From Micavibrio sp. (lineage in GTDB: Bacteria; Pseudomonadota; Alphaproteobacteria; Micavibrionales; Micavibrionaceae), in NCBI GenBank assembly GCA_027051315.1, contig JALTZE010000164.1, positions 1-14,255 of the forward strand: DNA of 14,255 nt, in the 5' to 3' direction. How positions within the stretch are numbered: position 1 is the first letter of the stretch; each line of letters starts with the position of its first letter. The position numbers and the translations under genes were made by a program. The notes beneath the pieces were generated by a model. The model made no database searches. It saw nothing but the letters and a program-made list of their open reading frames with translations, and was not told the DNA's origin. Shown one piece after another: positions 12,943-14,255 of the stretch.

Positions 12943-12951
12943 TATTTTTCC

Positions 12952-13896
12952 TTATACAGATTTTGAAAAGACTTTTTGGTTTTTCATTTTTTTAAAATAT
13001 TCATCAAATGGTAATACTATATTTCTAATAAGCAAACTTCCTGTTTTATTTACTTTTATTTTATCATCATTTATTTCAACAAGCCCTTCATCTACAAATT
13101 CTTGAAGTTCATTAAGCTCATTTTTAAATTTTTCTTTAAAATTAATTCCAAATTTTTCTTCAAATCTTTTTATATCAAAACTGAAATTTGCCATCATTTC
13201 CATTATAATGTATTTTCTAATTTTATCTTCTTCATTCAAAATAACTCCTCTAAAAGTCGGAATTTTTCCTGCATCAACAGCAGCTTCATAATTTTTTAAA
13301 TCTTTATAATTTTGAAAATATGCATCATCCGTTTCTGAAATAGATGTAAGACCAATTCCAATTAAATCAGCTCCCCCTTTTGTAGTATAGCCTTGGAAAT
13401 TTCTGTGAAGCTCACCTTTTTCTATTGCTTTGAATAATTCATCTTCTGGCTTTGCAAAATGGTCCATTCCAACCATTTTATAACCGTTACTTTCAAAAAA
13501 GTCTATAACATATTTAAAAATTTTAAGTTTCTCTTCCGGACTTGGCAGGGTTGTCTCATCTATTTTTCTCATACCTTTTTTCATCCAAGGAACATGAGCA
13601 TAATTAAATACAGCAAGTCTGTCAGGGTCAAGCTCTTTTACAAGTTCAAGCGTTTTTTTAAAACTTTCAAGCGTCTGATAAGGAAGCCCATAAATCAAAT
13701 CAATATTAATAGAGTGAATTCCTGCTTCTCTTGCTATATCTACGGCTTTCTTAGTCAAATCAAACGGTTGAATCCTGTTTACCGCTTTTTTGGTTGCTTC
13801 ATTAAAATCCTGTACTCCAAAACTAATTCTGTTTACTCCATATTTTTTCATAACATCCATATGCTCTTTACTAAAAAATCTAGGATCAATTTCCAC
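12952..13896 (-). CDS. hemN: oxygen-independent coproporphyrinogen III oxidase, 5'-truncated
   Basis: HemN is a radical-SAM enzyme that converts coproporphyrinogen III to protoporphyrinogen IX anaerobically in haem synthesis. The C-terminal 314 residues are present and align closely to E. coli HemN from about residue 144. They include the SAM-binding equivalents Glu2 (VEIDP), Gln29 (GVQDF) and Asp66 (NIDLIYGLP), LAVFNYAHVP, MVGMDHFAKPEDEL, LHRNFQGYTT and the C-terminal LLIRNI. The N-terminal third, with the CxxxCxxC cluster motif, is missing, so it cannot be a functional enzyme as it stands. The GTG at 13896 is an internal Val, not a true start. Homology continues upstream (FEKDA, TAA, IS). 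Lysine-rich composition resembles Campylobacterota such as Nautiliales. It is probably not native to the phage-bearing genome. Confidence 0.88.
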   Translation of the reverse strand: MEIDPRFFSKEHMDVMKKYGVNRISFGVQDFNEATKKAVNRIQPFDLTKKAVDIAREAGIHSINIDLIYGLPYQTLESFKKTLELVKELDPDRLAVFNYAHVPWMKKGMRKIDETTLPSPEEKLKIFKYVIDFFESNGYKMVGMDHFAKPEDELFKAIEKGELHRNFQGYTTKGGADLIGIGLTSISETDDAYFQNYKDLKNYEAAVDAGKIPTFRGVILNEEDKIRKYIIMEMMANFSFDIKRFEEKFGINFKEKFKNELNELQEFVDEGLVEINDDKIKVNKTGSLLIRNIVLPFDEYFKKMKNQKVFSKSV

Positions 13897-13935
13897 ACTA
13901 ATTTATGCATCTTTCTCAAAGTTTTTAAAATGTGA

Positions 13936-14087
13936 ATAAAGACCTGTGCCAAGTGTGTGATCATTAGTAGGACCAGTGAGTATGGAGCCGGTAGGTCCCT
14001 GGGATCGAGTCCAGTCAAAGTTGTCATGTTTGTCTTGAGTCCACTTGCAGAATCCATGTTCAAAGTTACAGTCGTACTGGGTGGCAG
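13936..14087 (-). other. partial animal exon encoding a MAM domain
   Basis: The minus strand encodes YDCNFEHGFCKWTQDKHDNFDWTR followed by GPTG and TGPTNDHTLGTG (in two parts: CNFEHGFCKW, then NFDWTRSQGPTG and TGPTNDHT). This is the start of a MAM domain, an extracellular adhesion module of animal membrane and secreted proteins, with the usual early cysteine pair. It is preceded by a pyrimidine-rich tract ending in AG at 14089-14088, a good splice acceptor. The reading frame implies a phase 1 intron, typical for shuffled extracellular modules. The exon is cut off near 13930 where HemN homology begins. Which MAM protein it is, and the animal group, cannot be decided. Confidence 0.8.
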
Positions 14088-14214
14088 CTAAAAACAAACA
14101 AAACTTTTTTTAAATACCTGAAGAGTGCAATTTCTGACACATTTATATATCAATGTTTTCTTTTAGACTTAATCCACATTAAAGTTAAACATAATTACAC
14201 ACGTGTGCGTGCGC
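14088..14214 (-). other. animal intron 3' part
   Basis: This noncoding AT-rich stretch leads, on the minus strand, into a T-rich tract (TTTGTTTGTTTTTAG) and the splice acceptor of the MAM exon. No open frame or bacterial signal is seen. CACACGTGTG at 14198-14207 is a perfect 10-base palindrome of alternating purine and pyrimidine next to the CA tract. Confidence 0.65.
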
Positions 14215-14255
14215 CACACACACACACACACACACACACACACACACACACACAC
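14215..14255. repeat. (CA)n dinucleotide microsatellite
   Basis: There are about 20 uninterrupted CA units running to the end of the window. Long pure CA tracts are common in animal introns and rare in bacteria. Its position at the end suggests the assembly stopped in the repeat. Confidence 0.97.

Follow-up and report, generated by a model that had tools for sequence, protein, structure and literature searches.

The last 1.3 kb of the window, that is, of the whole stretch of DNA analysed here (14,255 bases, the entire contig C164 of the Micavibrio-related MAG G000), is almost certainly a sequencing or assembly artefact in which three sources were joined, and not the outcome of a gene transfer (probability of about 0.96). 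Each of the three pieces has a distinct origin, the edges between them are sharp, the first join falls in a stretch shared by both of its partners, and the far edge of the true gap was found on a second contig of the same MAG, C320. The original prediction of a contig made of phage/alphaproteobacterial DNA, a Campylobacterota-like hemN and animal DNA holds for all three sources, and the origin of hemN could be narrowed to the Nautiliaceae. The positions of the features are collected in Table 1.

Table 1. Features along the window, with the corresponding part of contig C320 in the last line
Feature	Position	Strand	Basis or remark
YggT, FolD and NhaD-type antiporter; host chromosome	1–2759	+	Pfam
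Half of a T7-like virion gene cluster	2788–11667	-	Pfam/PHROG and synteny in relatives
tRNA-Ser(GGA), within the virion cluster	11780–11867	+	ARAGORN; Rfam tRNA at 11780–11864
Phage-type virion structural gene, last genuine gene ahead of join 1	12160–12942	-	PHROG 10356
Join 1, sequence common to the phage gene start and to Nautiliaceae DNA following hemN	12925–12952		Break somewhere within
Foreign Nautiliaceae hemN without its 5' third	12952–13940	-	One in-frame stop, 13903–13905
Join 2	13941–13955		Drop of identity to Nautiliaceae
Animal MAM-domain exon, partial	13941–14087	-	PF00629
Animal intron piece with acceptor and CA microsatellite	14088–14255	-	Reading of the sequence
Other half of the virion gene cluster, on contig C320	L130:639–2776		

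Origin of the three pieces

The MAG consists of 1,699,708 bases in 340 contigs, with a completeness of 96.86 and a contamination of 0.02, and about 91% of the contig (positions 1–12942) is ordinary chromosome of this MAG. Its host genes are followed by the incomplete virion cluster, which encodes a holin, an endolysin, a protein of 150 aa, the terminase large subunit, a protein of 107 aa, a tail spike, tail tube B and an internal virion protein. The few named relatives of the NhaD antiporter among the matches listed belong mostly to Alphaproteobacteria, Pseudomonadota, Rhodospirillales or Micavibrio MAGs, with a single one from Zetaproteobacteria. The database cluster to which the window's NhaD (1374–2759) belongs, P0123, contains 2 member sequences and is recorded on 3 contigs, the longest of 45,920 bases, so another assembly of the same or of a very close organism exists.

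The last gene of this chromosomal part, at 12160–12942, matched PHROG 10356 (“virion structural protein”, E 3.4e-24) and one further PHROG of unknown function, and no Pfam family at E 0.001. It had been described as a LamG phage gene; its phage type stood, whereas the name LamG found no support in Pfam and was dropped. The gene is patchily distributed, with relatives in 10 of 95 genomes, its own included. In a collection of viral contigs, tail tube B gave two loci and this phage gene three, none of them from MAG G000. Loci L100 and L101 of that collection carry a tail tube B that is 62 and 68% identical to that of the chromosomal virion cluster, and both may be pieces of bacterial chromosome.

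The hemN piece, by comparison with known sequences, is of Nautiliaceae origin. Its frame (12952–13896) scored 449 bits against TIGR00538, with a cut-off of 325, and covers model positions 128–453 of 454, so that the last two thirds of the protein are present and the N-terminal part is incomplete. The closest proteins are 94–95% identical across all 314 residues (P0001, 95%), and the named relatives among the 120 matches listed are mostly from Caminibacter, Lebetimonas and Nautilia. The nearest genome contigs come from Nautiliaceae MAGs, L003 (94% at the amino acid level) and L004 (93%), with 87% identity of the DNA, and in the hemN tree, amid Nautiliaceae rows, the window piece, P0001 and L006 make up a starred set (95/92). 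The HemN frame end that had been noticed is there, with KSV followed by the stop codon; among five relatives examined, KSV is the ending of three and KSI that of the other two. The single in-frame stop of the hemN piece is missing in the relatives compared. Between the piece and L003, synonymous change dominates (dN 0.037, dS 0.93), which indicates a sequence evolving as a working bacterial gene. Composition agrees with this origin: the 4-mer score of the piece (-0.0265 per base) lies within that of 55 Nautiliaceae windows (-0.042 to 0.000) and beyond the range of 42 windows of the MAG (0.009 to 0.043). The comparison of composition and the separate searches of each segment, both proposed at the outset, thus gave a Nautiliaceae-like hemN and different closest organisms for the different segments. 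In summary, the window copy shares with Nautiliaceae HemN (oxygen-independent coproporphyrinogen III oxidase, TIGR00538) the same protein end and a similar start of the downstream gene, and differs from it in lacking the 5' third and in carrying one in-frame stop.

The MAG has a hemN of its own on contig C193, covering model positions 6–447 of 454 without stops. This copy, extracted in frame, sits on a very long branch of the hemN tree. When a 9-kb Nautiliaceae locus was compared with the MAG, only the two hemN genes matched (40 of the 168 first-look candidates were scored).

The remaining piece, 13941–14255, is animal DNA. Its MAM domain was recognised by PF00629 with 40.9 bits (cut-off 26.4, E 2.4e-10) over the first 49 of 158 model positions only, and its best matches among solved structures are enteropeptidases (enteropeptidase MAM, E 5.9e-11). 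Two short ORFs from public assemblies, P0121 and P0122, are 76–77% identical to the piece (P0121, 76%), and P0121 also has residues at the exon start similar to those of the MAM exon. Beyond the exon, a pyrimidine-rich tract and an AG at 14088–14089 (complement) were read from the sequence as a splice acceptor of phase 1, and 20.5 perfect copies of CA (14215–14255) run up to the very end of the contig. The exon, the acceptor and the microsatellite that had been noticed are therefore all there. No other MAM match was found in the MAG, nor any in 14 control genomes.

The two joins and the gap between contigs

Exactly 9 bases, as had been counted before, separate the start of the phage gene at 12942 from the hemN stop codon ending at 12952. 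The stop codon is the end of the hemN frame, but not the edge of the match, since the similarity to Nautiliaceae passes it and reaches 12925 in both L003 and L004, with an edge at about 12925–12930. In ungapped bins of 15 bases, L003 and L004 match the window at 15 and 14 positions, respectively, over 12930–12944, and at four each over 12915–12929. The gene that follows hemN in these two loci starts a few bases downstream with M-K-I-S-I-G, and the phage gene at 12942 starts with M-K-I-S-T-G; both open with a similar Shine-Dalgarno-like run and with M-K-I-S-x-G codons. Either genome could consequently have supplied the 9-base spacer and the opening codons of the phage gene, and the break falls inside the common stretch. 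The longest exact words shared with L003 and L004 over the 36 bases at this join are of 16 and 14 bases, respectively. Exact words of 14–16 bases are shorter than the k usually employed by assemblers; a strain present in the sample may share a longer one than L003 or L004 do. The phage gene versions of five relatives have differing N-termini, with none in common that would pin the exact break, and the start of the phage gene was not found in the scan of the viral contig collection.

What belongs at the break was deduced from the relatives. Fourteen stretches around tail tube B were taken from them, of which one, on a 5.8 kb contig, was left out, leaving 13 usable loci; some of these 20-kb stretches lack one end of the cluster, and the small proteins were missed in some loci. 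The order of genes is holin, endolysin, small protein, terminase, small protein, tail spike, internal virion protein, tail tube B, tail tube A, small protein, capsid, PilZ (on the other strand), scaffold and portal. Capsid, tail tube A, PilZ and scaffold are present in the 13 loci, and a portal was found in the same 13 genomes. The window corresponds to the part from nhaD through tail tube B, and in locus L117 nhaD directly adjoins the holin gene, as it does here. Beyond tail tube B, the window continues with the internal virion protein and then the extra phage gene. This stretch (11146–12942) has an arrangement of its own: the gene for the internal virion protein, which in the relatives is found downstream of tail tube B, here precedes it and adjoins both the extra virion gene and the tRNA-Ser(GGA). 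A tRNA within the cluster was seen in one of the 13 relative stretches (tRNA-Trp, L118).

More of the cluster is located on another contig of the MAG, C320 (8197 bases), where PilZ, scaffold and portal come first and are followed by the host genes that L117 also has there. Neither the capsid nor the tail tube A query gave a match in the MAG. Such an empty answer is no proof on its own; the L117 portal, used as a positive control, was matched in the MAG at 61%, and the L117 capsid and tail tube A are 67–87% and 57–79% identical, respectively, to those of the 12 other loci. Taken together, the gene order of the relatives, C320 and the failure to find capsid and tail tube A genes place the hemN–MAM piece in a real assembly gap; most likely, the true sequence past 12942 runs through a few kb that are absent from the assembly and then into C320. 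This synteny is the strongest evidence against a genuine join 1, it is independent of the reads, and it bears out the initial preference for a joining in the library or the assembly over a transfer.

A true insertion of the Nautiliaceae hemN into the alphaproteobacterial virion cluster, with the animal end alone being artificial, would agree with a join that lies between genes and leaves both reading frames intact. However, the spacer and the first codons match the sequence found after hemN in Nautiliaceae, C320 breaks off across the gap, and the MAG has its own hemN, all of which makes such an insertion very unlikely.

The second join is equally sharp. The best Nautiliaceae matches stop at 13938–13940, and in the six Nautiliaceae loci compared, identity falls from 12–15 of 15 bases at 13925–13939 to 4–6 of 15 at 13940–13954. 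Because the in-frame stop ends the hemN frame early, the right edge of the hemN piece, at about 13940, lies inside the open frame of the MAM exon, which stays open over about eleven codons of hemN (a one-in-three chance). No long shared word was visible at this join from the hemN side.

These eleven codons in a single open frame, together with the in-frame stop and the missing 5' third that a decaying insert might show, are what could be said for a true transfer of the Nautiliaceae hemN into an animal genome, in which join 2 would be natural and join 1 alone artificial. Nonetheless, the hemN piece is otherwise intact and has diverged from its relatives like a working bacterial gene; it keeps the composition of Nautiliaceae and still has bacterial downstream sequence attached; animal DNA flanks it on one side only, the contig ending within the animal piece; no good splice donor could be seen by eye at the hemN/MAM edge; and the contig already has one join that is contradicted by synteny. 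We regard this transfer as even less probable than an insertion into the virion cluster. Finally, that the entire contig derives from an animal genome with a large bacterial insertion, for which the animal DNA on the contig could be invoked, can be dismissed, as positions 1–12942 are MAG chromosome in which folD neighbours the virion cluster, an arrangement shared by many relatives, no further MAM match was found in the MAG, and synteny contradicts it.

Under the preferred reading, that of an artefact, the phage-like cluster of the Micavibrio-related organism would not have been assembled past the start of the gene at 12942, and the contig would there have crossed over to hemN from a co-occurring Nautiliaceae bacterium through a near-identical stretch of about 25–30 bases; some 1 kb further it would have been joined to animal DNA, to end in the CA microsatellite. 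The loss of the hemN 5' third, the single stop and the microsatellite end would fit a thinly covered, error-prone contig end, and reads would not be expected to span the joins. The joins arose somewhat more probably in the assembly graph, via the shared gene start, than as chimeric library or amplification molecules. Interspecies chimeric contigs are a known kind of error in metagenome assembly. The present case resembles them in the joining of unrelated segments at a short shared sequence, in the sharp shift of composition and in the true neighbour being located on another contig; in contrast to them, it involves three sources, one of them an animal, and is argued here without reads.

A virion cluster widespread in the Micavibrio-related family

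The interrupted cluster is widespread among the relatives. Tail tube B was found in 63 of 91 genomes (47 of the 66 of good quality) and in 49 of the 58 of the window's family; the figures for the portal are 64 of 91, 55 of 66 and 47 of 58, respectively, and most genomes with either gene have a single copy. Strong matches to tail tube B were also detected in families f2, f4, f6 and f7 of the order, only weak ones (three genomes) in f3 and none in f5. Some nearly complete genomes of the window's own family have neither tail tube B nor portal (for example G003, 99%).

In 58 genomes, tail tube B was found as well as folD. The two genes lie within 30 kb of each other in 25 of these (the window's own included, as well as three from another family: G073, G079 and G082); in 6 they share a contig at a greater distance, and in 27 they are on separate contigs. 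Tail tube B distances correlate with those of FolD (Mantel r 0.61, with 0 of 9999 permutations as high, for 37 of the 58 genomes; also r 0.61 for the 34 genomes of the own family alone), although, with folD often near the cluster and hence not a fully independent marker, the correlation shows a shared regional history rather than strictly that of the whole host. This proximity and the correlated divergence indicate vertical inheritance at a conserved place.

As to whether the genes are kept intact, the signs are mixed. Purifying selection on tail tube B was detected in three of four pairs (e.g., G021 against G051, dN 0.014, dS 0.44), the fourth being saturated, and most portal and tail tube B matches have no internal stop. 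In a few genomes, the portal carries an internal stop (G034, on C1) or is split into two pieces (G009, on C2, and G082, on C20), which suggests decay of the cluster in some lineages, unless these are assembly errors at the portal genes. In addition, genome G016 (L118:8590–9014) shows extra tail tube B fragments beside the full gene, possibly the consequence of a partial duplication or of decay.

The tail spike (window 7155–9182, 675 residues) is conserved over its full length in the 13 relative loci, at 53–63%. The spike is usually the most variable gene of a phage, and such conservation is unusual for a phage receptor-binding protein. None of the 219 phage records matching it covers 80% of its length. 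The cluster bears podovirus-like marks, namely a T7-type scaffold (PF05396), a head–tail adaptor, a major head protein and tail tube families. No integrase or replication genes were found among the proteins scanned, which represent part of the ORFs. In all 13 relative loci the PilZ gene sits between capsid and scaffold on the opposite strand (L130:173–550 in the MAG), a placement that suggests either a control linked to c-di-GMP or a fixed passenger.

Overall, the cluster looks domesticated and is a candidate for a new kind of gene transfer agent. Judged from gene content, position and divergence, the phage piece of the window may be half of an ancient, host-maintained, T7-like (short-tailed) cluster near folD–nhaD, vertically inherited in most of the Micavibrio-related family and in some sister families, that would work as such an agent, perhaps under PilZ (c-di-GMP) control. 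We give this even odds and no better because the portal is damaged in a few genomes and folD cannot serve as an independent marker of the host; a prophage acquired repeatedly at one site and a particle with another use are the alternatives.

Like the gene transfer agents of the Rhodogtaviriformidae and Bartogtaviriformidae, as these are presented in the text of PMC9662315, the cluster is usually single copy, has a conserved position and diverges in step with a host gene. Unlike them, it has a T7-like gene set, with head–tail adaptor, T7-type scaffold, tail tubes A and B and spike. The same text mentions that the particles of Bartonella were first described as tailless or short-tailed. Vertical descent has been traced in other podovirus lineages, according to the main text of PMC10386132, in which the term gene transfer agent is absent. 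For Micavibrio aeruginosavorus, PMC3189940 reports having found no phage or plasmid molecule outside the genome; its main text mentions phage five times, and neither gene transfer agent nor terminase appears in it. Among the matches listed from the open-access literature, no description of the cluster was found.

In conclusion, the artefact reading removes a false case of transfer from a bacterium to an animal, and the joins behind it went unrevealed by the completeness and contamination figures of the MAG. It also illustrates that a chimera can be argued without reads, by seeking on other contigs the genes that relatives carry at the break. The virion cluster, and not the chimera, is the interesting part and deserves a study of its own, and as Micavibrio aeruginosavorus is in culture, a direct test of the candidate gene transfer agent would be feasible.
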